A DNA stretch of 64,000 bases, taken from Hydractinia symbiolongicarpus (taxonomy: Eukaryota > Cnidaria > Hydrozoa > Anthoathecata > Hydractiniidae). The stretch is from NCBI RefSeq assembly GCF_029227915.1, contig NC_079876.1:23622001-23686000 (forward strand), in the 5' to 3' direction. The notes beneath the pieces are model-generated. The model did not search any database. It had not been told where the DNA came from and saw nothing but the letters and a program-made list of their open reading frames with translations. The position numbers were made by a program, and so were the translations under genes. Of the stretch, positions 30,962 to 54,680 are shown in pieces. Each line of letters starts with the position of its first letter. Position 1 is the stretch's first letter.

Positions 30962-33900
30962 TTACTTACTTAAGAAGTCGCTGTCAAGAAAAGAACTGTC
31001 GTCATATTGCAACATATCAACTTCTGATGACTTCACATTTTCTGCCGTCTGCAATCAAAAGTAAAATTATAATGCATAAATTAGCGATTCAAATTTTGAA
31101 AATGTTTTTGAGTAAAATTCTAACTTTTCTAGCTATTTTCACACTTGTAAAGTGTAGAGTACACAAGGTACTGGAGAGCTGCGGCTGGCGCTCTCCACCG
31201 CTGCATTATTGCGTGGACTTTAAAACAGTTGTTTAAAATAATTTAAAAAGGTTTTAAACTTCGAATATGAAATAATTAATAGAATAATTTTCTTCAGATA
31301 TAAGATAGAGAAATGGAAAAATGTATTCTTAATGAAACAGATCAATAAAACATGCAAACAAAATGCAGGACTTACAGGTAACTGCGGGTTGCTATTTCCA
31401 CTCAACTTAGATATGTCTTGAAAATAGAAGTTATCTGTAGTAGGTGCTGCAAAAGAAAAGTAGAAGAAATAATATATACTATATATATTAGTCATATTTT
31501 ATCTCACACGAATCCAGACGACAAATACGAATCCTTAACCCTTTAATTGCAATCCCAAATTCAACACACACCGCGGCACCTTTTCACCTTCGATCTACTT
31601 TGTAGACATAACAAAAATTTCCACTAGCAACGGTGTCATTGCTCGTTAAATTCGAATCTCCTTTGACACAAAGAGTAGTTAAGCCAACCGAGCAGGAATG
31701 AAAGTTTGATGAAATACGTGACGACATACTGTTGACCCTTTCTATTTCGAATCTCTATAATTACCACATCTCTAAATTCGAACAAATTTAAAGCTATCCT
31801 GAAATTATCTTATAAATAATATGCGATGATACATGTTGCGATGAAGGTTTCAACGTGACCTGATGTCAAAAGTTAAAAATGGTGGCATGATGTAAAAAAT
31901 CAACAAAGTAGAATAGAGAAAATAAACTGACACAGAGTTTTATATATTTAACAAAACAATTACACAAAAACAGAGATGTGACAGAACTTAGAGAAGTAAA
32001 TTGCTAGCTCGAAAGTTTTGAAATATATTGTTAGGTAACCAGCTAGCTACACACGCATTTTTGCATGCTTTAAATTGCCTGAGTTTTGTGGCATATAAAA
32101 TTATTTACTTAAAAATTTATGGACAAGTTAGCTTTTATTTATTTTACACTAGCATGCCGTGTAGTAACGCACTTGTACCCACCATTTTGTTTTTTAGAGG
32201 AGGGATTCGCAGAAAACCCACAGCTGGTTGTTGTTGTTGTTCTTATTGTTGCAACACGTATGCCTTGTGAAGAATCTTGTTGACATTTCTCGGAAAAAAC
32301 ATTTTTTGCGTAGTCCATGTATCATCTATCATGGCATATTACCTTTAAAAAGCTTTTATATTTTTCTTTCTGTAATTCGGATTTCTTTACTTCAAAAACT
32401 TCCATAATTAGAATAAAAGTCTTTCCAAAAAATTCTCTCTGCGATTCGAATGTAGTGTTATCAGCATCAAAGTTGGGATTTTTGATAATTTGGTCTATAC
32501 TAGTTAAATTGTTTTTTCTCTTTGTTCTTTTTGCGCAATTTGGTCAAAATCAAAATATACAGAATTCTCCAACTCGAATTTTAAATTTTGTTTACAAGAT
32601 TCGAATTAGAGACAGAGCCAACCGTATTTTCATTAGCAGGGATTGAAAAAATGTCTCGTTTTTCGTCCCCCAATCAAAAAAATAATTTGAGATTGTCGAT
32701 TTCACCTAATCTAAACGGACTCTATGTCACTTCTTCATAATGAAACACCGTATACTTTCTCTCAACGAATAAGTAAATATGTCCGAAAAAATATGGAAAA
32801 AATAAACGAAACTAACAGCGTTTTAAAAATAGATGAAACTTGAGAGAACTCGGAAATAAATATTTTAAGTGCAAAATCGATTTAGCAAATTGAGACAGAA
32901 GTAAAAAAGAATTCTTCGGTTTTCTTGTGATTTCTAAACTTTTTTAACAACAACTAAGGCTGGTTCTGATTCCTGGGAGAGTTGCAACGCCAACATTTCA
33001 CACAACATTACTTTAATAAACCAAATCCCTATTAAATAATTTATAGTGTTGTGCTTAGTGTACGAAAGTTATTTTCGTGTCCCTCGATAAATTAAATTTC
33101 GTTACCTGTTTTACCAAACTCAAAGAATGAATCATATGACTTTACATCAATGTTGTCAAGTTTACGCGCAGTAGTGGAAGTACGCGATGACATTCTTGTG
33201 GAATCAGAGGTAAATGCACCAGGTGTGTTAAATGGTGACCAAAAACTTGAATCAAACCCAGATGCTCCTGTAGTTCCAAATGTTAGAGCACGTGTAGTGA
33301 AATGGTTAGGTGCATTTGTTGAGCCAAGCGTAGATGAACCAGTGGATCCAAAAGAAGAACCAACACCAAATGCTCCTGCAGTTCCAAATGTAGGAGCACG
33401 TGTAGTGAAAGGGTTAGGTGGATTTGTTGAGCCAAACGTAGATGAACCACCAATGGATCCAAAAGAAGAACCAACACCAAATGCTCCTGCAGTTCCAAAT
33501 GTTGGAGCACGTGTAGTGAAAGGGCTAGGTGCATTTGTTGAGCCGAATGTAGATGAACCAGTGGATCCAAAAGAAGAACCAGCACCAAATGCTCCTGCAG
33601 TTCCAAATGTAGGCGCACTTGTGAAACCAAAACCAGTGAAATCAAAAGAAGTTAAAGCGGTAGCAGAACTTGATGCAATGTTTGGATATCCAAAACGTGT
33701 TTTCTAAATATATGTCAATAAAAATAATATGACAATGTGTGTTGAGGTTTAATCTCATCAAAAGAACACATTTTACCCAACGCCACATTGTATATGTCCA
33801 GGACAAGCATTTGGAACTATTTTGTGTATAATCCTTCTCTTGTGTAGTTTTAGCCTAAATTTTATTGCTTTCAAACATGGTCATATCACATCAACAAATT

Positions 33901-36858
33901 GTGGGTATGTGCTTTTTTATTGATTTTTTGGGTTGCATAATTACTAGCTCGGTTGCTAGGATAGTTTTAATATACAACTACTAACTAACTAACTAACTAA
34001 CGACGTTCGAAATGGTACATTTCCACGTCATTAACTAGCTTTTATAACAAAAAAAAAGTTTAATTTTAGAAAACGGTTCCTCGGGGATCCAACCAGCACT
34101 GCGGAATGTCATCGCGTTTAAGTACAACACGCTAATCAACTGGGGTATTGCGACAGAACAAATTTGTGAATACAGGGAACAAAGTATAAAAGCCAATTTG
34201 TAAAACTGAGTTGTTATTAGAATAGATTCAAAAGAAAAAACAGAATGAAATTGTGAATACTTGATTTTCTTAAAAATAAAGCTTGATATAAAAAAGTAAA
34301 AAAACATTTCATATATTCTTGATGGGGGCTTTCTTTTAACAAAAAGATTGCAGTTCCAAAATAAAAGATAAAGTTATTTATGTGTTATTGTTATGCGCTG
34401 TTCAAGTTATTCGATTTACTTCTGGATGATATTGCGTAATTCCTTGTGGACCAGAACATGTCTTTAGACAACCATTTATTTGTAATGGCGAGTTTGTGCA
34501 GAGCAGGTTTGCCTTCCCTCCCACTATCCTAAACATTAATTTACAGTCAAGTGGAGCTATTTCAATCCAAATTTGACGGGCGAGGCAACGGAGTTACCCA
34601 GGAAATAAAAATAAAACAAAATAGTTAAGCAAAACACTCACCTGTTTAAGGAATGGAATATCTAAAAACAACGCTCTGAGATTAATACTCTAGGACAGTA
34701 ACATTTTAAGCAATGTTTGTTAGAACAGCAATTCGACAAATCAAAACATTTTTTCGAGCTGGTATTAATGTCTTTGTTGATCGGCCCTTTTTCCTCTCAA
34801 CTATAACCTAGCTTAACGCGATATAATAGTTGTTACATCTCTATGCCTAGCTACATTACAAGACACGCACAGCATTTCTCTGATATGCTGCTAAACATTT
34901 TGGGCAGACGATTACTCCAAGTGAACTTACAAAACTACAGCTATGGTACGCTAGAGTAGACATTGGAATCTGTAAGATATTTTAAAACTTACCAGACTTT
35001 AAAATTTTCGATAAATTAAAAATGTTATAATCTTGTAAACGTAGTTCCTGAAAACAAAACAAAAAAAAAAAGAAATAAACAGACAAGCAAGGAATATAAA
35101 TGAACACATAAGAACGAAAAATAAATATTACCTCCACAGAAAAATGTTTGTATTCATCCATTGGCTGAATGCATTGAAATCGTGCCTTGACAGTACTTTC
35201 AGTACTTGTTACAGGCTATATAAAGAAAAAAAACAAAAAGAGGGAATCAAGGACGTTGCATTCAGACACTGTTGAAGCATTAACACTAAAAAACAAACCT
35301 TAAAACGTGCTTTAAATGTCCCTTTAGCTGAAGAACGAAGAAGAACTATAAAAAAACCATTAATTAACCATGAATTCGTAAGTAACTTTTCTAATTTTTT
35401 ATTCAACAATATACATATAGGTAAAATAAGTACGAAAATCGTGAATATCAACAGATAGCAACAAGAAAAAAAAACCTTTTTTGAGATTCTCTGAAGCAGT
35501 TTTTTCCCATCGCACATATTGATTTAAACTGTCATTCAAAGGTATTTCTTGAAAAGTAACACTTAATTTTCCAAGGGGATTACATTCAAACGTATTATCT
35601 TCAACATCTTTTAGCACAGCTTGCATTTGGGGGACATTTTGTGGAATTAAACTCTTCAGTCTTTCTGCAATGTTGACTTTACCAGCGACAATAAAATAAT
35701 CTCCTTTGCTCTTCACCTTCTCAAAATAACGTGAAATCACATTGCTTACTTTCGATGATTCGTCAAAAATTTCGACTTCTGCTTTTAGCCGATTAACAAA
35801 ATGTTGCCATTCGTCGAGAATCCTTTTCTTTTCATCCTCCAGAAAGGTAAAGTATTTGCTAAGCCGTGTTTGCACGCGTCTGTCTAGCTCAGTACTAAAC
35901 TCATCCATTGACATTTTGATATCATCGATTTGCTTGTGACAGCCTTGAATCAAAATCTTCGCTCTTTGTCGTTTCTTTTCGCCATCTTCTACTTGCTTTA
36001 AAAGACTATGCTTTATTTTCCCAGCTTCTGTTTGTATTGTGTCACTTTTATGACCTACATGGGTTCGATGCTGGCAATATCTGCAGATGTATGCACCATC
36101 ACAATCAGAGCAAATCACATTAGCTATGCTGCGATGACTTGTACAAAAAGGTAGGATGGTTTGTGCTCTCCTGTGAAATATGATTGGGGTGTAATCAGCA
36201 TCAACGCAATCATGTGAAAGCCAACAATCATCGCAAGTGTTGGTTTGACATTTTGTACATGACCTCGTCACGGATGATTTACAATTGGAACTTTCTTCGC
36301 ACAAATACTTTGTGTTCTCATGTGACCTAAAATATCATTTATATCATTTTTTTTAGTTATTAAAATAAACCATTCAAAGTAAAGTTTTGGTACATGTAAA
36401 TATTGAAAATAGTTGGTTCCTATGGCATTGGGAAGTAAGTTTGCAATAGGTCTTCCGAAAGAATCGCAGGAAATTAAAATTAATTAGTGACAATCAAGAC
36501 TACAAAGTTTGCAAGGAGCAACACATTAAGTAATTGTTCCTATAGCGTAGGACGGAATTTAAAAGAACTCTGCAATTGACGAAAATACTCACAGACTTTT
36601 CACAACAGCCGACATATTGTGATTTGTTGCAAGAGAGTTTGTAGTTTCACTGGATTCTAATGATGTCTCTTCTTCACAGAGTTCTTCAGGACATTGTATG
36701 GTAGCGCTCCCATTATGTCTAAACACCAGCAAGCCATCAAGACATTCTTTACAAAAGGTATCGTTACAATCTAAAATTTTTGGTTCCTCTAATGTTTGAC
36801 TGCAGTAGCTACATTTAACAGCGTCAAGTAAGTGCAAGTTTTCTGTTGATAAATTCAT
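30962..36858 (-). CDS. TRIM-like gene 1: RING, B-boxes, coiled coil and FG repeats
   Basis: Nine minus-strand exons: 36593-36858, 35476-36326, 35299-35345, 35132-35215, 34993-35047, 34642-34661, 33106-33703, 31376-31446 and 30962-31048. Every junction is GT-AG with matching phase, and the total is 693 codons (692 residues). RING at residues 16-61 has C16, C19, C31, C36, C39, C56 and C61; the expected His is Asp33, and the last Cys pair is spaced CPEELC rather than CxxC. B-box1-like and B-box2 (PFCTSHRSIANVICSDC, CRYCQHRTHVGH) lie at about 98-180. A charged coiled coil runs to about 290. Then come the CIQPMDEYKHFSVE-ELRLQDY module, a 20-bp microexon (DIPFLKQ), about 200 residues with 15 FG motifs, and an acidic Phe-rich tail ending FLDSDFLSK. 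RING/B-box proteins are typically E3 ligases; activity is uncertain given Asp33. It is paralogous to the next two genes. Confidence 0.82.
33106..33703 (-). other. FG-repeat exon of TRIM-like gene 1
   Basis: This 598-bp exon starts at a TTTAG acceptor and ends at a CAG|GTAACG donor. Read on the minus strand it gives KTRFGYPN, then three 36-37-residue units containing RAPTFGTAGAFGVGSSFGST and STFGSTNAPNPF, then a degenerate fourth unit and a non-repetitive end (SYDSFFEFGKT). Spacers are rich in Ser, Thr, Gly, Ala and Asn with almost no acidic residues, as in FG nucleoporin domains. There is no ATG to start a frame here. The plus strand is open too, but the minus reading is the one compatible with flanking exon phases. 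Confidence 0.8.
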
Positions 36859-38732
36859 TTTGTTTTAATACTAAACAGACCGTGTAAATCTTCAATAAAC
36901 AAATTAAAATAAATATCCCTGATGCAGCTGTCAAACCTAGTTTCAATGTTGAAGTAAATCCAAAAATTTACATTCAGATAATGATGGCCGTACGACCATA
37001 TCTATCTGACTGTCAGCCAAAATGCTAGCAACAAGTAGTGACGTGTCACTGTGGATCTTCCATGGGAAGTAACAAAGAAGCGACTAGTAACAAAACAATT
37101 CTAACAACAAAAACTCTAATTGTAAGAAAAAATAAACGGTGCAATTTTAAAGAAATAATTATGTACATTAATCACAATTTTAACATGCATCATACATCAT
37201 ATGAAAAAATTATATATTTATATATATAATAGATAGATACATATACAAAACGTAAACCAGTTAATTCGATTAAAATTGACAAGAGGTTTTTTTAAACGCA
37301 TCGTCGTCATTAGTCACTTTCAATTTCCTCCTCTGTCAGCAACTTTATAACCTGCTTAAATTATATAACATGACTCTAACTTAGATGACTATCACAAAGG
37401 TTGGTTCCCAATCTTTAAATAATAATCCCAACATGGGACTCATAGTGAAAAATTGCAGTTACAAAAGAAGTGCGCTTAATAGAAGTCATTGTTGTGCGGA
37501 ACGACTGCTTAAAAACATTGATTCTTGTTTATAAGACATAGAACACAATATAAGATCAATAACACATTCTTATACTTTTTAAATAATAACTATTTCCTAT
37601 TTATTATTTACTTATTTACTGCATAAATTCCTCTATTTACATCTTTCAGGTTGTAAGACATATTAAGTCAAAATTGGTACAAAGAGGCAGAATTAAATAC
37701 GCATGATGCTTTGTGAGGGACATTACGTACATTCCACAATTTCACTTTCACGCAACGTTTTATGCATTTATTTTGCCAAAAATATTCTTGAATAAACAAC
37801 AAAGATTGAAATACAAAACTGTAGATTATTATAACTTGGACATTTTACTTCCACATTAGTATTTATCAACACAAAGAGATTACCATGTTGAAAAACCCAG
37901 TAAGAGACCCTATTAGACTACTGCTTATTAATAAACATAACATAATGCAAACTTTAAAAATTGACAAATCATTTGTTTCCATTCCTGGAACGTTAAAGTA
38001 AGTGTGGTGTATCATTTCGACAGATTGTTTCGACGAAATAACCAGAACATTTTATTATCATTTCGATAGATTGTTTCGACGAAATAAGAAGAACATTTTA
38101 TCATCATTTCGATAGATTGTTTCGACGAAATAACCAGAACATTTATTATCATTTTGATAGATTGTATCGACGAAATAACCAGAACATTTTATTTTCATTT
38201 CGAGAGCTTGTTTCCACGAAATAACCAGAACATTTTATTTTCATTTCGAGAACTTGTTACGACAAATTTCCGAGAACATTTGATCAAAGTTTAATGTCAA
38301 GTCAACTTGATAGACTACTGGTTACCACTTCGAAGAACGCACACGTCTTCCTGAAACGTGAATGTGTTAAGATAAACATTTATATTGTTTCCTAAGGCGT
38401 GTCTCATACATCGAAAACTACACGCTAAACATCTTTTGATTTTCCAATACTTCATATTTGGAAACATAGATTTTTATGAGACCAGAAATAACCTTCAACT
38501 TATTTGTCCTTTGTTCGCTTTGTATACGACTGTTTGTATGAGCGCTTTGGAAAGAAAAAATATTAATTTAAATATCACATTCTTCGATTTTAACTTTCAG
38601 TGTATAAAGGGAGGGAGTAAAATTTACACGTCACCTTGGCGTTCAGCTCACACTTTTGATATGTAAGTCATCCCTAAGTACAAGCTATATAATATAGCTA
38701 ATAAATGAATGAAAACCATTAAGAATTTCCTT
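36859..38732. other. Intergenic segment between TRIM-like genes 1 and 2
   Basis: This stretch contains the promoter side of gene 1 and the 3' side of gene 2. It holds a TA-rich tract near 37200, a 46-bp tandem array at 38005-38275 and no gene I can support. An open frame at 38385-38666 (plus) is conserved in the second copy, but only because the whole block is duplicated. Confidence 0.5.
38005..38275. repeat. 46-bp tandem repeat with TTTCGA dyads, copy A
   Basis: About six units of roughly 46 bp each contain CATTTCGATAGATTG then TTTCGACGAAATAACCAGAA. Each unit contains ATTTCG and CGAAAT arms facing each other, so every unit can form a small hairpin. The last two units are degraded. Confidence 0.8.
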
Positions 38733-39605
38733 TTAAATCTTACTTCTTCCAAATGTAGGAGGACGTGTAGTGAAAGGGTTAGGTGCATTTGTTGAGCCAA
38801 ACGTAGATGAACCAGTGGATCCAAAAGAAGAACCAACACCAAATGCTCCTGCAGTTCCAAATGTTGCAGCACGTGTAGTGAAAGGGTTAGATGCATTTGT
38901 TGAGCCAAACGTAGATGAACCAGTGGATCCAAAAGAAGAACCAACACCAAATGCTCCTGCAGTTCCAAATGTTGGAGCACATGTAGTTAAGGGGTTAGGT
39001 GCATTTGTTGAGCCAAACGTAGATGAACCAGTGGATCCAAAAGAAGAACCAACACCAAATGCTCCTGGAGTTCCAAAAGTTGGAGCACGTGTAGTGAAAG
39101 GGTTAGGTGCATTTGTTGAGCCAAACGTAGATGAACCAGTGGATCCAAAAGAAGAACCAACACCAAATGCTCCTGCAGTTCCAAATGTAGGAGCACGTGT
39201 AGTGAAAGGGTTAGGTGGATTTGTTGAGCCAAACGTAGATGAACCAGTGGATCCAAAAGAAGAACCAACACCAAATGATCCTGCAGTTCCAAATGTTGCA
39301 GCACGTGTAGTGAAAGGGTTAGGTGCATTTGTTGAGCCGAATGTAGATGAACCAGTGGATCCAAAAGAAGAACCAGCACCAAATGCTCCTGCAGTTCCAA
39401 ATGTTGCAGCACGTGTAGTGAAAGGGTTAGGTGCGTTTGTTGAGCCGAATGTAGATGAACCAGTGGATCCAAAAGAAGAACCAGCACCAAATGCTCCAGC
39501 AGTTCCAAATGTAGGCGCACTTGTGAAACCAAAACCAGTGAAATTAAAAGAAGTTAAAGGGGTAGCAGAACTTGATGCAATGTTTGGATATCTAAAACGT
39601 GTTTT
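38733..39605 (-). other. FG-repeat exon of TRIM-like gene 2, seven units
   Basis: This 873-bp terminal exon begins after a TTTAG acceptor with KTRFRYPN (one Gly to Arg change from gene 1) and continues through seven 108-bp units without a stop on the minus strand. Each unit contributes four FG motifs (two TFG, one AFG or variant, one SFG) separated by Ser/Thr/Gly/Ala/Asn-rich spacers. One unit has lost a Phe and an Arg (NPLTTCAP). It ends in frame at a TAA that lies outside the repeat. Confidence 0.8.
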
Positions 39606-42600
39606 CTAAATATATGTCAATAAAAATAATATGACAATGTGTGTTGAGGTTTAATCTTATCAAAGGAACACATTTTACCCAACGCCACATTGTATATGTC
39701 CAGGGCAAGCATTTTGAACTATTTTGTGTATAATCCTTCTCTTGTGTAGTTTTAGCCTAAATTTTATTGCTTTCAAACATGGTCATATCACATCAACAAA
39801 TTGTGGGTATGTGCTTTTTTTATTGATTTTTTGGGTTGCATAATTACTAGCTCGGTTGCTAGGATAGTTTTAATATACAACTACTAACTAACGACGTCCG
39901 AAATGGCACATTTCCACGTCATTAACTAGCTTTCATAACAAAAAAAAGTTTAATTTTAGAAAACGATTCCTCGGGGATCCAACCAGCACTGCAGAATGTC
40001 ATCGCGTTTAAGTACAACGCGCTAATCAACTGGGGTATTGCGACAGAACAAATTTGTGAATATTTTTAACATTTTTAATTTAAAATTATTTCATCTGCTA
40101 AAAATTTTTGTTCTATATTTAGTCGAGAAAAGTTTTTGCTATTCGGTCATATTGGGTTATTCTGTTATACTGTCATAGGGGCTCTACATAAGTTATCAAA
40201 CGGTTTTTTTAAAAAACCAATTTTTCCCCAGCGTTTTTTTTAATCACCCAAGTAAAGAGGTTATTCTCTTAGCTTACTTTTCATATAAGTAGCACAGGGA
40301 ACAAAGTATAAAAGCCAATTTGTAAAACTGAGTTGTTATTAGAATAGATTCAAAAGAAAAAACAGAATGAAATTGTGAATACTTGATTTTCCTAAAAATA
40401 AAGCTTGATATAAAAAAGTAAAAAAGCATTTCATATATTCTTGATGGAGGCTTTCTTTTAACAAAAAGATTGCAGTTCCAAAATAAAAGATAAAGTTATT
40501 TATGTGTTATTGTTATGCGCTGTTCAAGTTATTCGATTTACTTCTGAATGATATTGCGTAATTCCTTGTGGACCAGAACATGTCTTTAGACAACCATTTC
40601 ATAGTTATTTGTGCATAACATATATGTCCAACAAAAGTACAAAGAAAAAAAATTACTTTCCAGCGATGTGACTCTGCGCATCGAATGACCAAGCTGTATT
40701 TACTGTTATTAGAACTTGTTTGCCCAGAAAATAATTTCTTAAAAAATCCGTCTTGGGTCCCATTGTAGTACTGCAAATTTTTTTACTCAAAGGATTATTC
40801 TTAAATGAAAGGAGAGCACAAAAAAGCAGATCGTTATAAATATATATTTCTTACAGAAAAAAAATTGCAGAATTGGGTGTTTCACTATTATCGATGTTTC
40901 ACAGTTGTATATTGGAAATGGCGAGTTTGTGCAGAGCAGGTTTGTCTTCCCTCCCACTATCCTAAACATTAATTTACAGTCGAGTGGAGCTATTTCAATC
41001 CAAATTTGACGGGCGAGGCAACAGAGTTACCCAGGAAATAAAAATAAAACAAAATAGTTAACCAAAACACTCACCTGTTTAAGGAATGGAATATCTAAAA
41101 ACAACGCTCTGAGATTAATACTCTAGGACAGTAACATTTCAAGCAATGTTTGTTAGAACAGCAATTCGACAAATCAAAACATTTTTTCGAGCTGGTATTA
41201 ATGTCTTTGTTGATCGGCCCTTTTTCCTCTCAACTATAACCTAGCTTAACGCGATATAATAGTTGTTACATCTCTATGCCTAGCTACATTACAAGACACG
41301 CACAGCATTTCTCTGATATGCTGCTAAACATTTTGAACAGACGATTACTCCAAGTGAACTTACAAAACTACAGCTATGGTACGCTAGAGTAGACATTGGA
41401 ATCTGTAAGATATTTTAAAACTTACCAGACTTAGAAATTTCTGATAAATTAAAAATGTTATAATCTTGCAAACGTAGTTCCTGAAAACAAAACAAAACAA
41501 AAGAAATAAACAGACAAGCAAGGTATATAAATGAACACATAAGAACGAAAAATAAGTATTACCTCCACAGAAAAATGTTTGTATTCATCCATTATCCGAA
41601 TGCATTGATATTGTGTATTGATAGTCATTGATACACCACTTTTTTGGGTTCCTTCCAAACCCGTTACAGGCTATATAAAGAAAAAAGACACAAAAAGAGG
41701 AAATCAAGGACATTGCATTTAGACACTGTTGAAGCATTAATACTAAAAAACAAACCTTAAAACGTGCTTTGAATGTCCCTTTAGCTGAAGAACGAAGAAG
41801 AACTATAAAATAAACCATTTGTAATTCATTCGTAAATAAGCAATTTTGTGCCAGCTTTTTCAGCCATAACTTTTCTAATTTTTTATTTAACATAAAAATA
41901 AAAAGTACGGAAATCGTAAATATCAGCAGATAGCAAACAGAAAAAATAACCTTTTTTGAGATTCTCTGAAGCAGTTTTTTCCCATCGCACATATTGATTC
42001 ATACTATTATTTATAGGTATTTCTTGAACAGTAACACTTAATTTACCAAGGGGATTACATTCAAACGTATTATCTTCAACATCGTTTAGCACAGCTTGCA
42101 TTTGGGGGACATTTTGTGGAATTAAACTCTTCAGTCTTTCTGCAATGTTGACTTTACCAGCGACAATAAAATAATCTCCTTTGCTTTTCACCTTCTCAAA
42201 ATAACGTGAAATGATATTGCTTACTTTTGATGATTCGTCAAAAATTTCGACTTCTGCTTTTAGCCGATTAACAAAATGTTGAAATTCATCGACGATCCTT
42301 TTCTTCTCATTCTCCAAGAAGGTAAAGTATTTGCTAAGCCGTGTTTGCACGCGTCTGTCTAACTCAACACTAAACTCGCCCATTGACATTTCGATATCAT
42401 CGATTTGCTTGTGACAGCCTTGAATCAAAAGCTTCGCTCTTTGTCGTTTCTTTTCGCCATCTTCTACTTGCTTTAAAAGACTATGCTTTATTTTCCCAGC
42501 TTCTGTTTGTATTGTGTCACTTTCATGACCTACATGGGTTCGATGCTGGCAATATCTGCAGATGTATGCACCATCACAATCAGAGCAAATCACATTAGCT

Positions 42601-43332
42601 ATGCTGCGATGACTTGTACAAAAAGGTAGGATGGTTTGTGCTCTCCTGTGAAATATGATTGGGGTGTAATCAGCATCAACGCAATCATGTGAAAGCCAAC
42701 AATCATCGCAAGTGTTGGTTTGACATTTTGTACATGACCTCGTCACGGATGATTTACAATTGGAACTTTCTTCGCACAAATACTTTGTGTTCTCATGTGA
42801 CCTAAAATATCATTTATATCATTTTTTTAGTTATTAAAATAAACCATTCAAAGTAAAGTTTTGGTACATGTAAATATTGAAAATAGTTGGTTCCTATGGC
42901 ATTGGGAAGAAAGTTTGCAATAGGTCTTCCGAAAGAATCGCAGGAAATTAAAATTAATTAGTGACAATCAAGACTACAAAGTTTGCAAGGAGCAACACAT
43001 TAAGTAATTGTTCCTATAGCGTAGGACGGAAATTAAAAGAACTCTGCAATTGACGGAAATACTCACAGACTTTTCACAACAGCCGACATATTGTGATTTG
43101 TTGCAAGAGAGTTTGTAGTTTCACTGGATTCTAATGATGTCTCTTCTTCACAGAGTTCTTCAGGACATTGTATGGTAGCGCTCCCATTATGTCTAAACAC
43201 CAGCAAGCCATCAAGACATTCTTTACAAAAGGTATGGTTACATTCTAAAATTTTTGGTTCCTCTAATGTTTGACTGCAGTAGCTACATTTAACAGCGTCA
43301 AGTAAGTGCAAGTTTTCTGTTGATAAATTCAT
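38733..43332 (-). CDS. TRIM-like gene 2: RING, B-boxes, coiled coil, long FG-repeat end
   Basis: Seven minus-strand exons: 43067-43332, 41951-42801, 41756-41802, 41563-41670, 41426-41480, 41075-41094 and 38733-39605. GT-AG borders and phases agree, giving 740 codons (739 residues). The N-terminal half is nearly identical to gene 1, but the RING here has the canonical CNHTFC His. Exon 4 is 24 bases longer than in gene 1 (36 versus 28 codons). The FG exon carries seven units of 36 residues with about 30 FG motifs, then ends abruptly as TFGRSKI-stop. The last RSKI and the stop belong to sequence homologous to the end of gene 3, not gene 1. The C-terminal exons of gene 1 are absent. A multivalent RING scaffold or ligase is the likely type; function is inferred from domains only. 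Confidence 0.82.
40063..40293. repeat. Insertion present only in the right duplicate (about 230 bp)
   Basis: In the left copy GTGAATACAGGGAAC is continuous near 34167, while in the right copy about 230 AT-rich bases intervene between GTGAATA and CACAGGGAAC. I see no clear terminal repeats, so it could equally be a deletion in the left copy. It lies in the intron before the gene 2 FG exon. Confidence 0.65.
40600..40915. repeat. Second insertion present only in the right duplicate (about 320 bp)
   Basis: The left copy reads CAACCATTTATTTGTAATGG near 34470, while the right copy has about 320 extra bases between CAACCATTT and AAATGGCGAG. No gene or clear terminal inverted repeat is visible. It lies in the same intron of gene 2 as the first insertion. 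Confidence 0.65.
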
Positions 43333-45205
43333 TTTGTTTTAATACTAAACAGACCGTGTAAATCTTCAATAAACAAATTAAAATAAATATCCCTGATGCA
43401 GCTGTCAAACCTAGTTTCAATGTTGAAGTAAATCCAAAATTTTACATTCAGATAATGATGGCCGTACGACCATATCTATCTGACTGTCAGCCAAAATGCT
43501 AGCAACAAGTAGTGACGTGTCACTGTGGATCTTCCATGGGAAGTAACAAAGAAGCGACTAGTAACAAAACAATTTTAACAACAAAAGCTCTAATTGTAAG
43601 AAAAAATAAACGGTGCAATTTTAAAGAAATAATTATGTACATTAATCACAATTTTAACATGCATCATACATCATATGAAAAAATTATATATTTATATATA
43701 TAATAGATAGATACATATACAAAACGTAAACCAGTTAATTCGATTAAAATTGACAAGAGGTTTTTTTAATAGCATCGTCGTCATTAGTCACTTTCAATTT
43801 CCTCCTCTGTCAGCAACTTTATAACCTGCTTAAATTATATAACATGACTCTAACTTAGATGACTATCACAAAGGTTGGTTCCCAATCTTTAAATAATAAT
43901 CCCAACATGGGACTCATAGTGAAAAATTGCAGTTACAAAAGAAGTGCGCTTAATAGAAGTCATTGTTGTGCGGAACGACTGCTTAAAAACATTGATTCTT
44001 GTTTATAGACATAGAACACAATATAAGATCAATAACACATTCTTATACTTTTTAAATAATAACTATTTCCTATTTATTATTTACTTATTTACTGCATAAA
44101 TTCCTCTATTTACATCTTTCAGGTTGTAAGACATATTACGTCAAAATTGGTACAAAGAGGCAGAATTAAATACGCATGATGCTTTGTGAGAGACATTACG
44201 TACATTCCACAATTTCACTTTCACGCAACGTTTTATGCATTTATTTTGCCAAAAATATTCTTGAATAAACAACAAAGATTGAAATACAAAACTGTAGATT
44301 ATTATAACTTGGACATTTTACTTCCACATTAGTATTTATCAACACAAAGAGATTACCATGTTGAAAAACCCAGTAAGAGACCCTATTAGACTACTGCTTA
44401 TTAATAAACATAACATAATGCAAACTTTAAAAATTGACAAATCATTTGTTTCCATTCCTGGAACGTTAAAGTAAGTGTGGTGTATCATTTCGACAGATTG
44501 TTTCGACGAAATAACCAGAACATTTTATTATCATTTCGATAGATTGTTTCGACGAAATAAGAAGAACATTTTATCATCATTTCGATAGATTGTTTCGACG
44601 AAATAACCAGAACATTTATTATCATTTTGATAGATTGTATCGACGAAATAACCAGAACATTTTATTTTCATTTCGAGAGCTTGTTTCCACGAAATAACCA
44701 GAACATTTTATTTTCATTTCGAGAACTTGTTACGACAAATTACCGAGAACATTTGATCAAAGTTTAATGTCAAGTCAACTTGATAGACTACTGGTTACCA
44801 CTTCGAAGAACGCACACGTCTTCCTAAAACGTGAATGTGTTAAGATAAACATTTATATTGTTTCCTAAGGCGTGTCTCATACATCGAAAACTACACGCTA
44901 AACATCTTTTGATTTTCCAATATTTCATATTTGGAAACATAGATTTTTATGAGACCAGAAATAACCTTCAACTTATTTGTCCTCTGTTCGCTTTGTATAC
45001 GAACATTTGTATGAGCGCTTTGGAAAGAAAAAATATTAATTTAAATATTACATTCTTCGATTTTAACTTTCAGTGTATAAAGGGAGGGAGTAAAATTTAC
45101 ACGTCACCTTGGCGTTCAGCTCACACTTTTGATATGTAAGTCATCCCTAAGTACAAGCTATATAATATAGCTAATAAATAAATGAAAACCATTAAGAATT
45201 TCCTT
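43333..45205. other. Intergenic segment between TRIM-like genes 2 and 3
   Basis: This is the duplicate of 36859-38732, differing by a few substitutions and one- or two-base indels. It contains the second 46-bp array and no supported gene. As the upstream DNA of gene 2 it probably carries the same promoter as gene 1. Confidence 0.5.
44478..44748. repeat. 46-bp tandem repeat with TTTCGA dyads, copy B
   Basis: This array is the duplicate of the one at 38005-38275, with the same unit number and the same internal variants, showing that it predates the segmental duplication and has not changed in copy number since. Confidence 0.8.
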
Positions 45206-48200
45206 TTAAATCTTACTTCTTCTCCCATTACAATTGGATGTTAAAAAACTAGTGTTGGAGAACAAAATCGGTTTTTCTGGACTTTGCATTTTCACATCAG
45301 CAACATCTGTGAACGATAAATTTTCCAGATCAGGTGATAACATGCTGGAGAAGTCATAACCACTGCATATCTAAAGATATTAGGTTATAAAGGATTGCAT
45401 CTGTTGTCTTCTTCGTCATGCCATAAAATGTTATGATTTAAGAACACGAAGTAGTAGAAGCACAAACGCAAATCATTCTTGTATGTAATTCCTCTTATTT
45501 ATTTGAGAAAAAAATGCGTTGTTACAATCTACCATTAAATACAATAACCATACATACATCTTTCTTTTTCTTCTTTTCATCTTCTAAATAAAAACATCAT
45601 GAGAATATCAAGAAATTCGGCACACATAGATTTGCAAGTACATGCTTTTTGGTGAGAGTGAATCAATGGCTTTGTTTTATCTCCAAATACTTTTCTCTTA
45701 ATTCGATTCCATTGCAAATGTTTGTAGTTGAAGAAGGTATTTCGGTAGAAAGCGTCATAAGAAGTGTATTGTAAAGTTGATCAGTGCTGTTTTTCTGTTT
45801 TACCTTAGATCAAACAGAATAACCTTGCAAGGGACGCCATGCAGTTACTCTATTTGAGAGTAACTTAAAAACAATCTTCTTGGCGTAGGTGTGCAACAGA
45901 TTCGTTTCAGATTGGTAAATGTTATTTTATATTTTTATGTCTTTTTTTTAAAAAAAAAAGGAAAGGGCACATCAATAAACATTAGTACAGTTGATGCATC
46001 TGCGTTAACAGTGCTTCCTAATTCAAAACATTTTTCACGTGCACATGAAGTTCGCACCATAAAAGGTAATTAAACCTTAGAGCAGCTGTTTTGTGATGTT
46101 GACACTGCGACATAAGGAAATGATCAGGTGGAATGCTCTTTTCAGTGAATTTGACAACAAGATTGAGATGAAAATCCCAGCTGTCAAAAATTTATTCGGA
46201 ACACTCACTTCTGACGTAACGGCAAAATAAAGGGAGCATTTTAAGATTTTATTAAAAGTAATCTCAATGAAGAAACTTATGGAAAATATTCACAAATAAA
46301 TACCGACCACAAAGTAGCCATTTTCAAAATAAAATGTGAACAGTTGAGGTGTAAAAATATAGGAAGAAGGGGTAGAATAATTTTTGTAACTCGCATTCCC
46401 GATTTGACTGCCAAAAGTGCAACAAAAAGACAATAAAATACATACCAGAGGGATGTACATTTTTTCTCGAAGGAAAACCCTTCCTCTTCAGTATATAATC
46501 AACTAAACGCAACTCCTAAAAAATAAGAAAGAGGCTCAGTAAATATTAGACAGAAAAAATTAGTACAAAAATCTCACAGGAATAATATCAACGTGATAAT
46601 TCATTCTTTTATAAGCTTTTATACAATCATACATGGTTCTGGATAATTGTATCAATAGTAGTTAGTTTTGCATAATTGCATCAATAGTAGTTGGTTTTGG
46701 ATAATTGTATCAATAGTAGTTAGTTTTGCATAATTGTATCAATAGTAGTTGGTTTTATATAATTGTATCAATAGTAGTTGGTTTTGGATAATTGTATGAA
46801 TAGTAGTTGGTTTGGCATAATTGCATCAATAGTAGTTGGTTTTGGATAATTGTATCAATAGTAGTTAGTTTTGCATAATTGTATCAATAGTAGTTGGTTT
46901 TGTATAATTGTATGAATAGTATTTGGTTTTGGATAATCGTATGAATAGTAGTTGGTTTTGTATAATTGCATCAATAGTAGTTGGTTTTGGATAATTGTAT
47001 CAATAGTAGTTGGTTTTGTATAAATGTATGAATAGTAGTTGGTTTTGGATAACTGTATCAATAGTAGTTGGTTTTGTATAATTGTATCAATAGTATTTGA
47101 TTTTGGATAATTGTATGAATAGTAGTTGGTTTTGTATAATTGTATCAATAGTAGTTGGTTTTGTATAATTGTATCAATAGTAGTTGGTTTGGCATAATTG
47201 CATCAATAGTAGTTGGTTTTGGATAATTGTATGAATAGTAGTTGGTTTTGGATAACTGTATCAATAGTAGTTGGTTTTGCATAATTGCATCAATAGTAGT
47301 TGGTTTTGTATAATTGTATGAATAGTAGTTGGTTTTGGATAATTGTATCAATAGTAGTTGGTTTTGGATAATTGTATGAATAGTAGTTGGTTTTGCATAA
47401 TTGCATCAATAGTAGTTGGTTTTGGATAACTGTATCAATAGTAGTTGGTTTTGTATAATTGTATCAATAGTAGTTGGTTTTGGATAATTGTATGAATAGT
47501 AGTTGGTTTTGCATAATTGCATCAATAGTAGTTGGTTTTGGATAATTGTATCAATAGTAGTTGGTTTTGTATAATTGTATTAATAGTAGTTGCTTTTGTA
47601 TAATTGTATGAATAGTAGTTGGTTTTGCATAATTGTATTAATGGTAGTTGGTTTTGGATAATTGTATGAATAGTAGTTGGTTTTGGATAATTGTATGAAT
47701 AGTAGTTGGTTTTGCATAATTGCATCAATAGTAGTTGGTTTTGGATAATTGTATTAATAGTAGTTGGTTTTGTATAATTGTATCAATAGTAGTTGGTTTT
47801 GTATAATTGTATCAATAGTAGTTGGTTTTGTATAATTGTATCAATAGTAGTTGGTTTTATATAATTGTATCAATAGTAGTTGGTTTTGTATAATTGTATC
47901 AATAGTAGTTGGCTTTGTATAATTGTATCAATAGTGGTTGGCTTTGTATAATTGGTTTTGTATAATTGTATCAATAGTAGTTGGTTTTGTATAATCGTAT
48001 CAATAGTAGTTGGTTTTGTATAAGTGTATCAATAGTAGTTGGCTTTGTATAATTGTATCAATAGTAGTTGGTTTTGTATAATTGTATCAATAGTAGTTGG
48101 TTTTGTATAATTGTATCAATAGTAGTTGACTTGTATAATTGTATCAATAGTAGTTGGCTTTGTATAATTGTATCAATAGTAGTTGGCTTTGTATAATTGT

Positions 48201-51200
48201 ATCAATAGTAGTTGGCTTTGTATAATTGTATCAATAGTAGTTGGCTTTGTATAATTGTATCAATAGTAGTTGGCTTTGTATAATTGTATAAATAGTAGTT
48301 GGTTTTGGATAATTGTATCAATAGTAGTTGGTTTTGTATAATTGCATCAATAGTAGTTGGCTTTGTATAATTGTATCAATAGTAGTTGGTTTTGTATAAG
48401 TGTATCAATAGTAGTTGGCTTTGTATAATTGTATCAATAGTAGTTGGTGTTGTATAATTGTATCAATAGTAGTTGGTTTTGTATAATTGTATCAATAGTA
48501 GTTGGCTTTGTATAATTGTATCAATAGTAGTTGGTTTTGTATAAGTGTATCAATAGTAGTTGGCTTTGTATAATTGTATAAATAGTAGTTGGCTTTGTGT
48601 AATTGTATCAATAGTAGTTGGCTTTGTATAATTGTATCAATAGTAGTTGGCTTTGTATAATTGTATAAATAGTAGTTGGCTTTGTGTAATTGTATCAATA
48701 GTAGTTGGCTTTGTATAATTGTATCAATAGTAGTTGGCTTTGTATAATTGTATCAATAGTAGTTGGTTTTGTATAAGTGTATCAATAGTAGTTGGCTTTG
48801 CATAATTGTATCAATAGTAGTTGGTGTTGTATAATTGTATCAATAGTAGTTGGTTTTGTATAATTGTATCAATAGTAGTTGGCTTTGTATAATTGTATCA
48901 ATAGTAGTTGGCTTTGTATAATTGTATCAATAGTAGTTGGCTTTGTATAATTGTATCAATAGTAGTTGGCTTTGTATAATTGTATCAATAGTAGTTGGTT
49001 TGCATAATTGCATCAATAGTAGTTAGTTTTGCATAATTGTATCAATAGTAGTTGGTTTTGGATAATTGTATCAATAGTAGTTAGTTTTGTATAATTGTAT
49101 CAATAGAACAGAGATCATATGGCTTCGATAACCAAATTAAAAAAAAACGAAACATCTTGTAGGAGTAATTTTTGAAATTATATATAGCACTTTTTATGTT
49201 TTGCAGCATGTTTCTTAAAAAAATTTGAGAATATAACTTTTTAGATAAAAATGGCTATACATAACTTTAATTAATTAGTTAGCTCATCGATAGTAGCCCG
49301 AGACAAATCAGGTTTTACTCGTGGTATTTTTTAATAATTGATATGCTAGGACTACAGGGGTTAATTTAATCATGCATAAAATCTATTACTGAATTAGTTT
49401 TTTAAATTTGTTGATATAATTTGTGATATTTTCCCTTCCATATATAAACATATATATACCTTAGTTTGAATCCTAAACTCAATTTTTTTCTAATTCCCAT
49501 TTTTGCTAATTTTCTGTTCATAGTCTGCTATTCGATTCTTATTTTCTTTTCTTTCTTTTTTTCTAACATTCTCATAATTTTATATATATTATTTATAAAC
49601 AAAAAACAATTTTTGGCTCTTTGTTTACTTTGTTTATTTTTGTTTTAACAGGTCACTTGTTGATAACAGTGGAGATATATTATATCATAGTGAAGATGTA
49701 AACCTGTATAAATATGATTAATAATAAATAATAACAGCTGTTCATGTTAGTGCTCTAAAATAATAAAGCACAGAGTAATACATACCTCAAGTGAGTATTG
49801 ACTGTACTCATCCATCATTGTGATACAATTTGCCATGTCATGCCCAAATTGAACATCTATTGGCACTCGCTAAAACTCAAAATATACAATAAATTCCAAC
49901 CAAATAAATATAGAATACAACTCATCCAATTAAAGAGCAAAAAAAACAACACCTATTTCCCATCTCTTTGGTCTTTTGAATAAATTTAGATTAAAAGGTC
50001 TAAAGATGAAAAATCTGAATAGGCACAGGTGAGACAAAATTCAGCGCATAACCTTTTAAAAATCTATTTATATTTATCTGCCTGTGACAAACGGTTTTAT
50101 GCTGCACAGTTTAAGATAGAAAGAAATTTTTTGTTATTTTAGTTTCATATCCAGATTTTTAACTAGCTACTGCTATCTACGTTTAATATACTTTGGCTAT
50201 GCTAAATAATTAACATTTTCGCATACACACCTGATATCTTACAACTGTCCCTTCATTCTCATGCTTTCCAAACTCTAAAAGACAATAAAAAGTGTATTTT
50301 TACTGTAAAAAAAATTTTTTTAAAAGAAATACCATTTGTCACTTACTGTCCAGCAGTAAAGGAAATTGTTTCAACTTTCTAGCAGCATTCGAATACACAT
50401 TCGACATCTCAATGTTTTTCATCTTGCACTGCACAAAGCTAGTCAGAGATTTCTTAGGTTCGTTCTGTCTTTCGACATCTAACACCCCTAAGTATTGTCT
50501 ATAAGAGTTAGGCACTGGTTGAATATCACCTAAATTTACATTCAGTGTGGGAACTGTAGATGAAAGGAGCTTATCTATCTTTGATTTTACGCGTTTTGTT
50601 GATTTTATAACGCAGAAATCCTCCTTGTTTTTTATCTCCGTTAAAAATTCCAAACTTTCTTTCAGTTTGCCTTTATCCAAAAAAAGAGCAATTTCATTGT
50701 AAAATGTTCGAACTTCATCATCAAATGTTTTCAAGATTGTACTCTCTTCTTTGGCTAAAGATTCAAGAAGATCTTTTGCAATTGTTATTTCGCGGTTTCT
50801 TAACTCTTGAAAAAGTAACATGCGTGTTTTTTGGAATTCAGTTATAGATAATTTGAGTATTGCTTTTAATTCTGAGGAGTCTTCCTCTTCTGTTGTAGCC
50901 GTTTCAAGTTTTGAATCAATAAAATTTCGAATAGCTTTAGCTGCACTTTTAACAGATGAAAAATCATGCCCTAAGTGTAATCGATGTTTACAATAGATAC
51001 AAACAAAGCAATTTTTGCATGTCTTGCAAAGGTGATGGGCGATAGTGGAATGTTTTTCACAATATGGTTGAAAACAACCTGTCTTTACATCAAATGTTAT
51101 TGGAGTGTATCTTGCACTTTCATTGCTCCCATCTTTCCTTCTCAAAACTTGAGGCATGGTACCATTACATAAATGCTTTGACCAGCAAATCTTACAAGTC

Positions 51201-53207
51201 TTAACGTTGCATTCTGCACAATATCTGCTGATCTCAGATGTACAATTTTCGTCTGCTTTGCATGTTCTGCTATTTGAGCTAAGAAAATAATTAACAAAAA
51301 AATATAAATCAATTTAATGTAAACAGATTTAAAACATAAGCTTTGTTATTCCTTTGGAAAATATTAGTTGAAATAGTGAAACTTAAATTAAGTAACCTTT
51401 GCAAAAATTTATTTTTCTATTTCTTTATTTCAGGACATTAACAGCACAAAAATAAGTTAATTTAAAAAAAATTTACGCTCTGTTTAGACAATGTAATAAC
51501 AATTTTACGAATAGGGTATACCCTTTGAGCATGATTTTTTAAATTGCAATTTTTTCAGTGGCAATAAATCAAAGTTTATTCATTCAAAAATAATTTTGAA
51601 ATCCCTATCAAATGTTAAAATAATAATTTCAAAATTTTTAACTTGTAGAAAATACAGAAACATTTTTGAAGCATAACCTGCCTGCAGAAAAATGAAAAAG
51701 CTAGTTTACTCCCAACTCTCATTCAATGTTCTTTAGATATGTGATAAATGTAGAAAATACAGTTTTGTAACTATTCTCAACCAAGCCTCAATTTTTTATT
51801 TATTTTTTACTTTTTAATTTTATTATTCAACACGAACTATCCTTATTGGGATGTAATATCTAGGGAATATAAAAATCTTTTTCGAAGAAAAAAAAACGTT
51901 TTGTTGGCTTTAACATTTCAGTGCTCTTGCAGAGTTTCTGTAAATTTTTAAAAAGAATTTAAAATGTAATAGAGGGTGTATATAAAAAAGGAAAGAGATT
52001 TTTCAAAATATCACACCTTTTAAACATACTCATGATCTTCTTATTTTAGGAGTACACCCCCCCCCCCTTAGCCTAATTTTTTCAAGCTCACACTATTATC
52101 TTCATCCTGTATTGGATATGTAACGCACAAACACTCTATACCATTGAAATCAAACCTAAATTATTGTTTAAAAGCCATGTTAACTGCTAGAAGTGATTCT
52201 ATTTTTAAAAAACATAGTCATTTCTTTTAATTTTGATGAAAAGAGGAAAGTCTTCTAAATCCACTCATAACTACTATTTAATTTTAATATCAAAAATGTC
52301 TCAATTATTTACAAATGTCATGTCAAATTACAGAAGGAACTTTTGAAAAACAGTGGTACACCCATTGCCACGATTTCAGAAACAAATCAAAAGAAAAATC
52401 GACAGAACTGTCAAAACATATCTGGAGTTTGAAAAAAGCAGGAACACTGCCAATTTTGAAATTCACCACGCCCCTGCATACAGAAACGGTGGCAAAACAT
52501 GTAATTTATGCATCGCTGAAAAATACCATATAATAACATCCAAACTGAAATTACTAAACAAAAGAACAGAATTAATAAGTGTCCTCATAGCAACAAGTTT
52601 TATTTTCAGACAAATAGTTTTATACGTCTTTCTTTTAACTGCTTTTATCAATTGTATTACTCTTTTATGTCTATAACTTGTACATATTCCCACCGGATTT
52701 ACACATTTTTCACAGTTTTTAAATTGAAGTAGTTTATCACTGTACATTTGATAATCGTTTAGCATGAAACTGACAGTTATGTAATTTTAACTTATTTTCA
52801 AATACATTAAATTTTAAAATCGCTCTACTTCATTTTTGTTGGCATTGAGCACTTTCCCAACAGAAACAACTTTTGAAAACTAATTTTAATACAGAAAAAC
52901 ATCAATATGTATATGGTTGTACTCACCTAGACAACACATCAATGACACTTGCAAGATTGTAATTTGGTGGCAAATCATTGGTAGTGCCTGTTAATGTAAT
53001 GTTAGTCAATTCTGCGCACATCAATGGGCATTTTATAGTACCAGCACCACTATATTCCCATTGGATTACGTGGTCCAGACAATCTTTACAGAAGGTATGA
53101 AAACATTGCAATATTTTAGGATTGCATAGTTGCTCGAGACATACATTACACTTGATGGCTTCATTTAATCTTGCATTAGTGTCATTCTCTTTTGTTGACT
53201 GAGCCAT
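45206..53207 (-). CDS. TRIM-like gene 3: RING, B-boxes, coiled coil, no FG exon
   Basis: Seven minus-strand exons: 52927-53207, 50347-51278, 50231-50274, 49786-49869, 46446-46515, 45558-45583 and 45206-45370. All are GT-AG with matching phases and total 534 codons (533 residues). RING residues include C20, C23, C35, H37, C40 and C43, with the last pair as CPLMC. B-box1-like (YCAECNVKTCKICWSKH) is followed by B-box2 (YCEKHSTIAHHLCKTC, CIYCKHRLHLGH) and a coiled coil. It shares the CITMMDEYSQYSLE-ELRLVDY module with genes 1 and 2 at equivalent exon borders. In place of the 20-bp microexon and FG exon there is a 26-bp lysine-rich microexon (EDEKKKKKD) and a short tail ending GRRSKI. The last two exons are weaker predictions. 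Intron 5 holds a large minisatellite. It is divergent from CHP. Confidence 0.8.
46635..49106. repeat. 29-bp minisatellite, about 85 copies, in intron 5 of gene 3
   Basis: The 29-bp unit contains ATAATTGTATCAATAGTAG followed by TTGGTTTTGT. About 2470 bp gives near 85 copies. Unit variants are not randomly mixed: the left half has many GGATAATTGTATGAATAG and GCATAATTGCATC units, while the right half is dominated by GGCTTTGTATAATTG units with longer-range repeats. One unit near 47948 is truncated. Long open frames across the array arise because the unit lacks stops on the minus strand and are not genes. Confidence 0.95.
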
Positions 53208-54680
53208 GATTTTTAAATTCCTTGTGGAATTATTTTTTAACCAGTTGTCTTATTTTTCATTCTAAGCTAATAAAGCGTAAGTATATATAAATCTAAAACT
53301 TAAGAACTAAAATGATGCTGAATTATAAATGAAATATTAATACATATACTTAGATAGCAGTAAATCACTGGTTGGGCATAAAGTAAAAAACATACATAGT
53401 TAGTTTTAATAAATAATAAATAGTAACACACAGATTTTAACAGTAGATAAAGTTACTGAACTATGTCTGGCCATTAAAATTTATAGCGACATAGCAACAA
53501 TTTAAACAAGAATACTATATATATACACTGTAATATATCAAAAAGCCAAGTCAACTTTTTAAAAGTTTGTACAAAGTAAACCAACAAAGTAAATTTTGGA
53601 GTATATTCGAAAGGAAATTCTAGCTGTTCACGGAAAACCAAGATTTTCTGTAGGAAAGAAACTAGTAACTTAGTGAGTACATGGAATGAAAAAAGTAACA
53701 AAATGTAAAAGGAGGGCAGAATTTTAAAATTTGTAAGCACAAGCAGTTGAGAAAACTGCTTCTGCATAAGTAGCACACACTGAACTTGTCAAGGTTAGGA
53801 TTTAGGATTTTAGGTTATTTGGTTGAATTCAAAATCCTAAGGGGTACTAATTTTTGCTGATATCAGCATGCCCCAATTCCCTGATTTTTTTAACCTTTTT
53901 GGATCATAAAGTAAATTGTTGCAAAATGCCGATATTGTGAAAAAGTTCAGCTGGTGCATTTTGACCTTACTTACTTAGCTACCACTTGCCAAAGTAAAAC
54001 TGTCCAGTTTGGCCATTAAAAGAAATATTCAAAACTGACTTTTTCACAAGTATTATGTACAGAGTTGTAGCTACCTTGTTGACTAGCTTTTGTTTTGCAC
54101 CAAAATTAGTAATTTTGAAACTAGCTATACATAGCGACGAGACAGTCAAATACAGATGCTCGATAACATTAATAATACTTACTATATACTTTAAAGTATA
54201 TCTGTAGCTAGCACAATAAAGTATATTTATAAAAAACTCAAGATGTCAGGTCATTCAGGAATGCTCGCTGAAACTTTGTTTTGGTAGCATTAAATAACAG
54301 AAAATACGCCTCGGAAATTTCTCGGAATTAGTGGTTGTCAACAGGTTGTATTTAATGTGTGTTTATGAAGCTGCAAATAAAAATTTTATAATTAAATATT
54401 ATATCTACTTAAAATTAGTTAAAACAAAAAGATTTGAAATTATAACAGAAAAAATTATTATCTTTTGTCTAAGAAAAAAAACACTATGGTGCAAGACAAC
54501 GTAAGGTGAACCCCCTGGTTTCTTATTAGATTGCATATTGGATAGCCCGCTGCCGGTAGCGAAACTTCAAAACAACACAAAAGAAAATAGAAAATATTGC
54601 ACCGTCACTGAAATGAAAAGGGACTTCTGACTGTCTGACTGCTTCATTTATTTCATTTTTTAAAAAAATACACATCTAAT
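53208..54680. promoter_or_regulatory. Shared upstream region between gene 3 and CHP
   Basis: The start codons of gene 3 (minus) and CHP (plus) face away from each other across about 1.47 kb. Both promoters must lie here or in unannotated upstream exons. The DNA is AT-rich and I identified no definite core promoter element. Confidence 0.4.

Follow-up and report, generated by a model that had tools for sequence, protein, structure and literature searches.

Tandem arrays of a 108-bp unit lie among TRIM-like genes in the window (the whole 64,000-nt stretch of Hydractinia symbiolongicarpus DNA that was analysed), where a first-pass annotation had described FG-nucleoporin-like repeats spliced onto RING/B-box proteins of the minus strand. 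We favour another reading, with about even confidence and ahead of both an FG exon and a non-coding minisatellite: the array would encode a repeat protein on the plus strand. Most likely a small gene on the plus strand has it as its last exon and ends in a compact poly(A) site of its own; this gene would lie within or next to, and antisense to, a TRIM-like gene that belongs to a large B-box/ankyrin family. The FG appearance would then mirror, codon by codon, an open frame on the opposite strand. Transcription of either strand is a prediction. The locus serves as a caution: Pro-Asn and Pro-Lys repeats in wobble-on-wobble register become FG repeats on the opposite strand, so any FG-rich frame that is predicted in silico should first be backed by evidence on the strand. 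Features are listed in Table 1.

Table 1. Features of the 108-bp arrays and the surrounding TRIM-like genes; coordinates are positions in the window.
Feature	Coordinates	Strand	Basis and remarks
Copy A array	33258..33622	.	Tandem Repeats Finder; about 3.4 units
Copy B array	38747..39524	.	Tandem Repeats Finder and duplication alignment; about 7.2 units; truncated near 38,747 by the junction of the segmental duplication
Plus last exon (favoured reading)	33126..33707	+	Open frame 33096-33707; unit PNAPAVPNVGARVVKGLGAFVEPNVDEPVDPKEEPT; Pro/Val/Glu/Lys-rich; end ...FGYPKRVF*
Plus frame, copy B	38737..39609	+	Plus-5' part not duplicated; same AATAAA and GT-rich element downstream
AATAAA and GT-rich element	33717..33748	+	AATAAA 10 nt past the plus stop (33705-33707), then TGTGTGTTGAGG; identical in copy B
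FG exon, copy A (rival reading)	33106..33703	-	15 FG in the whole frame
FG exon, copy B (rival reading)	38733..39605	-	30 FG; stops at chance GRSKI* across the duplication junction
Gene 1 RING exon	36593..36858	-	PF00097; Asp (CNDTFC) where copy B has His (CNHTFC)
Gene 1 B-box exon (36326-35476) and four short exons down to 34642	34642..36326	-	A/B alignment, exon joining
Gene 1 candidate tail exons (31446-31376, 31048-30962)	30962..31446	-	Open, splice-like flanks; putative members of gene 1
Gene 2, tandem duplicate of gene 1: RING 43332-43067, B-box 42801-41951, four short exons	41075..43332	-	
Gene 2 candidate further exon (YYNGTQDGFF...)	40657..40770	-	Inside 311-nt stretch missing in copy A; doubtful
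Gene 3, diverged paralogue, same cluster	45209..53249	-	RING 53.2 kb, B-box-like exon 51.3-50.3 kb, candidate last exon 45370-45209

The minus strand of the 108-bp repeats does read as FG, as had been described: the minus ORF of copy A (33092-33703) contains 15 FG motifs and that of copy B (38733-39605) contains 30. The accompanying description of spacers nearly free of acidic residues holds for copy B, which has no Asp or Glu, but not for copy A, in which there are eight. FG motifs are mostly restricted to the 108-bp unit; the unique flanks of the FG frame in copy A, with 2 FG in 71 residues, hardly look like FG sequence. Three of the six frames, one plus and two minus, are open across most of array A, and both of its unique flanks (about 44 and 27 codons) are free of stops on both strands in a region that is AT-rich. 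A tryptic peptide of the plus unit would be GLGAFVEPNVDEPVDPK, and one of the minus unit APTFGTAGAFGVGSSFGSTGSSTFGSTNAPNPFTTR. Several further tandem arrays were found near the 108-bp arrays, and 46-bp tandem repeats lie upstream of both duplicated genes (38010-38281 and 44483-44754). By eye, we also noted a stretch at 34060-34180, GGTTGGATCCCCGA, that resembles a tRNA and may derive from a SINE; it lies in the intron next to array A. Also noted by eye were LINE-like pieces on the minus strand (61688-63023), with an endonuclease domain, PF03372, at 62460-63023.

The minus FG frame is arranged wobble-on-wobble against the plus frame 33096-33707: their third codon positions coincide. In this register, plus CC-AA becomes minus FG if the Pro codon ends in A or G, while plus GA (Asp/Glu) becomes Ser, plus GT (Val) becomes Thr, and plus TC (Ser) becomes Asp or Glu. 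Every minus FG is a plus CCR-AAN, that is, Pro-Asn or Pro-Lys (15 of 15 in copy A, 30 of 30 in copy B), and minus Asp/Glu residues and plus TCN codons number eight and eight in copy A, and zero and zero in copy B. Given this mirror, composition alone cannot tell the coding strand. If the plus protein contains much Pro-Asn/Pro-Lys, Val, Glu/Asp and Ala but little Tyr, His, Gln and TCN-encoded Ser, the minus strand comes out stop-free, with FG, Thr, Ser, Ala and few acidic residues.

Two properties of the unit nevertheless count in favour of the FG reading, both to be taken with the qualification that repeat units are not independent: FG pairing within the unit is non-random (four pairs, shuffle P 0.002), which an FG function would explain directly, and Pro codons before Asn or Lys end in A or G in 15 of 15 cases in copy A compared with 15 of 28 for reference exons. 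Back-translating the plus protein at random gave mean FG counts of 7.1 and 14.1, about half of the observed 15 and 30, because every Pro codon before Asn or Lys here ends in A or G. The remaining Pro codons of the copy A plus frame also lean to A or G (11 of 16).

The sequence that follows the plus stop favours the plus strand. It has a poly(A)-like context in which AATAAA is followed by an element with 11 of 12 letters G or T. Among 876 open runs of at least 60 codons on both strands of 282 kb, 67 had AATAAA within 40 nt of the stop, and only eight stops had AATAAA together with an equally G/T-rich element; two of those eight are this site in copies A and B. The 36-residue plus unit places a cationic amphipathic segment, NVGARVVKGLGAFV, beside an acidic Pro-rich spacer. 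This 14-residue segment has a moment of 0.541, with P 0.009 when its own residues were shuffled and 0.064 after searching the unit; unit-searched windows of 11 and 18 residues gave P 0.039 and 0.028. In the minus unit, no window of the amphipathicity scan stood out. The plus product would perhaps be a multi-copy secreted precursor.

The 5' end of the plus gene is the weak part of the model, and its structure is conjectural. Position 33126 is the only AG usable as an acceptor in the open frame and is of median quality, and the in-frame ATG at 33150 comes after out-of-frame ATGs at 33127 and 33136. A plus ORF at 31102-31170, one of six crude hits, begins like a signal peptide and has a fair donor whose phase fits 33126; it is a possible first exon. 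In searches of the animal's own genome (480.9 Mb, 76 contigs), the plus repeat protein had three matches, all inside arrays A and B. Searches of viral contigs and plasmids gave no relatives of the plus frame. The YDF-SMLS resemblance of the plus frame to the candidate last exon of gene 3 (E 0.6-2.4) was put down to chance.

Self-comparison and the alignment of copies A and B revealed a single tandem segmental duplication, its unit about 6.47 kb long, pairing 33.25-38.75 kb with 38.75-45.22 kb; the copies differ by 0.87% substitutions in their common intergenic part. The junction falls inside array B, and copy B is without the array's unique end and without the tail exons. Its FG frame closes on GRSKI*, and the few bases concerned are also those that end gene 3's candidate last exon at 45.2 kb. 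Through the duplication the TRIM-like gene was copied together with part of the array, and the plus frame of copy B therefore lacks its 5' part. The minus FG frame had been said to match the phase of the TRIM-like exons in two independent copies; the phases do fit, but the copies are the halves of a single duplication, so that the match counts as one observation. Complete models of 692 and 739 residues had been proposed, and open models of 686 and 733 residues can indeed be joined; since array B is cut at the junction, however, the gene 2 model ends in a chance stop. The two downstream exons of gene 1 that had been placed in phase are open and have splice-like flanks, but would belong to gene 1 only by conjecture.

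The two copies also differ in ways that touch the genes themselves. A 311-nt stretch of copy B, which holds a candidate exon there, is missing from copy A; from the alignment we read this as a probable deletion in copy A. Divergence between 35050-35950 and 41500-42430 is patchy: intron 2 differs by 16.6%, exon 4 by 17.9% and exon 5 by 9.1%, with a 24-nt in-frame indel in exon 4, while intron 5 and the intergenic DNA of the duplicates differ by 0.9%. The B-box exon has 14 replacement and nine silent codon differences. Diversifying selection, or else gene conversion by a paralogue, may underlie this patchiness. Three A/B differences fall in the unique 3' part of the plus frame, and each changes a residue on both strands.

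The N-terminal C3HC4 RING domain (PF00097) scored above the Pfam cut-off in genes 1, 2 and 3, with 25.5 bits in gene 1 against 34.0 bits in gene 2. Because gene 1 has Asp at a RING His position, copy A may be a dead ligase. The B-box (PF00643) reached 22.0 and 21.9 bits, under the cut-off of 24.1, and the B-box-like exon of gene 3 matched no Pfam family at E 0.1. About 85 copies of a 29-bp repeat (46634-49106) lie within what is presumed to be a long intron of gene 3.

Searching the genome with the B-box exon gave 87 matches; three of these are the window's own, and 77 are on one contig (C1). The family is spread over four contigs (C1-C4), and several of the matches contain stops. We read 5-6 kb downstream of the exon at nine loci outside the window, four chosen for low E values and five picked by hand across C1, C2 and C4. 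Ankyrin repeats were found downstream of the B-box exon at eight of the nine (tblastn, E 1e-4) and were confirmed by Pfam in four of four loci tested; at the ninth, on C4 (L033), tblastn at E 1e-4 found none. None of the nine loci had an open run of at least 40 codons with more than two FG, and an FG domain would thus, so far as was read, be private to the duplicated pair. The RING exons that belong to these relatives lay beyond the stretches read, except for one that belongs to a neighbouring gene at L031. Ankyrin queries against the window gave no convincing match, and the only ankyrin match at E below 0.1 in 282 kb was 21 kb past the window end. Viral contigs and prokaryote genome contigs held no relatives of the B-box frame. 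With 87 exon matches, the B-box/ankyrin family is a sizeable expansion in itself.

Substitutions and codon usage do not settle the strand. Across nine full units, with one 3-nt insertion taken out, 21 distinct variants were scored: seven were synonymous on the plus strand against 5.4 expected, and six on the minus strand against 5.8 expected. Purifying selection was thus not visible on either strand in this low-powered test. Codon usage leaned toward the plus strand by 4.9 bits over 107 codons (likelihood ratio 2.0; training set of 3,933 codons). An earlier score of 13.8 bits for plus (bootstrap mean, about 1,100 training codons) shrank to this value with the larger set, and codon usage is therefore not relied on. 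Single-sequence AlphaFold2 models had a mean pLDDT of 43.8 for the plus reading, with three weak helices and no residue at or above 70, and of 37.6 for the minus reading; with values this low for both, the structures are unfit for fold search.

We consider it unlikely that the array is a minus coding exon of the TRIM-like gene, in which a disordered FG domain would stand C-terminal to the RING, B-box and helical segments and is predicted to self-associate or bind transport receptors. The models built with it are open, and its phases, 0 at entry and 1 at exit, both fit; gene 1 joined without it runs into three stops in the tail. Its acceptor ranks in the top 3.9-4.3% of window AGs and its donor in the top 6.5-9.6% of window GTs (3.9% and 6.5% initially; 4.3% and 9.6% with hand-corrected training sites and exon 40770-40657 excluded). 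However, the T-rich tract of the acceptor and the plus AATAAA stretch are complementary, which means that the acceptor and poly(A) signals share letters in part, the GT-rich element being separate. Both strands of the window were divided into 38 blocks of 3.16 kb, the FG exon itself perhaps among them; 15 of the blocks had a candidate exon of fitting phase with equally good sites, yet only two had a comparable candidate of at least 300 nt. Another candidate exon, 34268-34094, lies in the same intron. To the non-random FG pairing, which this reading would explain, are opposed the single duplication event with its truncated copy B, the nine outside loci devoid of an FG-rich frame, and a minus frame in which synonymous changes are as frequent as expected. 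The FG frame had no match beyond the arrays in 282 kb, none in the gene 3 region, and no relatives in viral contigs and phages. Pfam returned no nucleoporin family for either copy, no family at all for copy A at E 1, and an unrelated peptidase domain as the best hit for copy B (E 0.046), and a PDB search with copy B gave no match at E 1; composition filters may hide matches in these searches. What stands of the proposed splicing of FG repeats onto RING/B-box proteins is thus a real RING, fair splice sites and a fitting phase, whereas the fusion to the neighbouring TRIM-like genes is unproven from DNA alone. If the FG exon were spliced in, ubiquitin-ligase modules would be joined to a nuclear-pore-like, possibly phase-separating domain.

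Much the same low probability attaches to the view that neither strand is translated and that the array is an intronic or intergenic minisatellite. A unit of 108 bp is divisible by three, so any open frame would remain open in each copy, and the neutral-looking substitution pattern on both strands, the three frames open over most of array A and the other tandem arrays close by would all be expected. It accounts less well for unique flanks that stay open on both strands despite the AT-rich surroundings, or for the strong poly(A)-like context after the plus stop. Highly improbable, in our estimate, is a two-strand coding minisatellite, in which one branch of the B-box/ankyrin family would have had its C-terminal part replaced by a tandem-repeat FG domain, yielding an FG-bearing ligase from the minus strand and an amphipathic repeat protein from the plus strand of the same DNA. 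The plus-strand repeat protein remains the reading that we prefer.

Compared with TRIM/RBCC ubiquitin ligases, the genes of this cluster are alike in having a RING exon followed by an exon with a putative B-box and in occurring as tandem copies. They are unlike them in a B-box below the Pfam cut-off, in the gene 1 RING with Asp at a His position, and in that eight of nine relatives in this genome carry ankyrin repeats downstream of the B-box exon. The first-pass annotation knew of no TRIM family with an FG-repeat domain; among titles and abstract openings retrieved for TRIM or E3 ligases with FG repeats, no such fusion appeared, and in the main text of a paper on TRIM ligase origin (PMC3503706) the word nucleoporin is absent.

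With FG nucleoporins, the minus reading shares dense FG motifs in low-charge Ser/Thr/Gly/Ala/Asn spacers, a likeness that the plus mirror explains equally well; it differs in lacking a nucleoporin match in Pfam (both copies) or PDB (copy B), and in the confinement of FG mostly to the 108-bp unit. RanBP2 is an FG-bearing SUMO ligase, and the minus reading resembles it in the same motifs and Ser/Thr/Gly/Ala/Asn spacers. Unlike in RanBP2 and the FG nucleoporins, each FG here mirrors a plus Pro-Asn or Pro-Lys. Cnidarian neuropeptide precursors carry repeated GR/GKR cleavage signals (PMC8638164). The plus frames differ from them in having no repeated GR/GKR/GRR sites (GR 0 and 1, GK 0 and 0, KR 1 and 1 in the two copies) and a signal peptide that is only a candidate, but like the multi-copy precursors of cnidarians, the plus reading consists of near-identical tandem units in which a basic segment accompanies acidic and X-Pro spacers.
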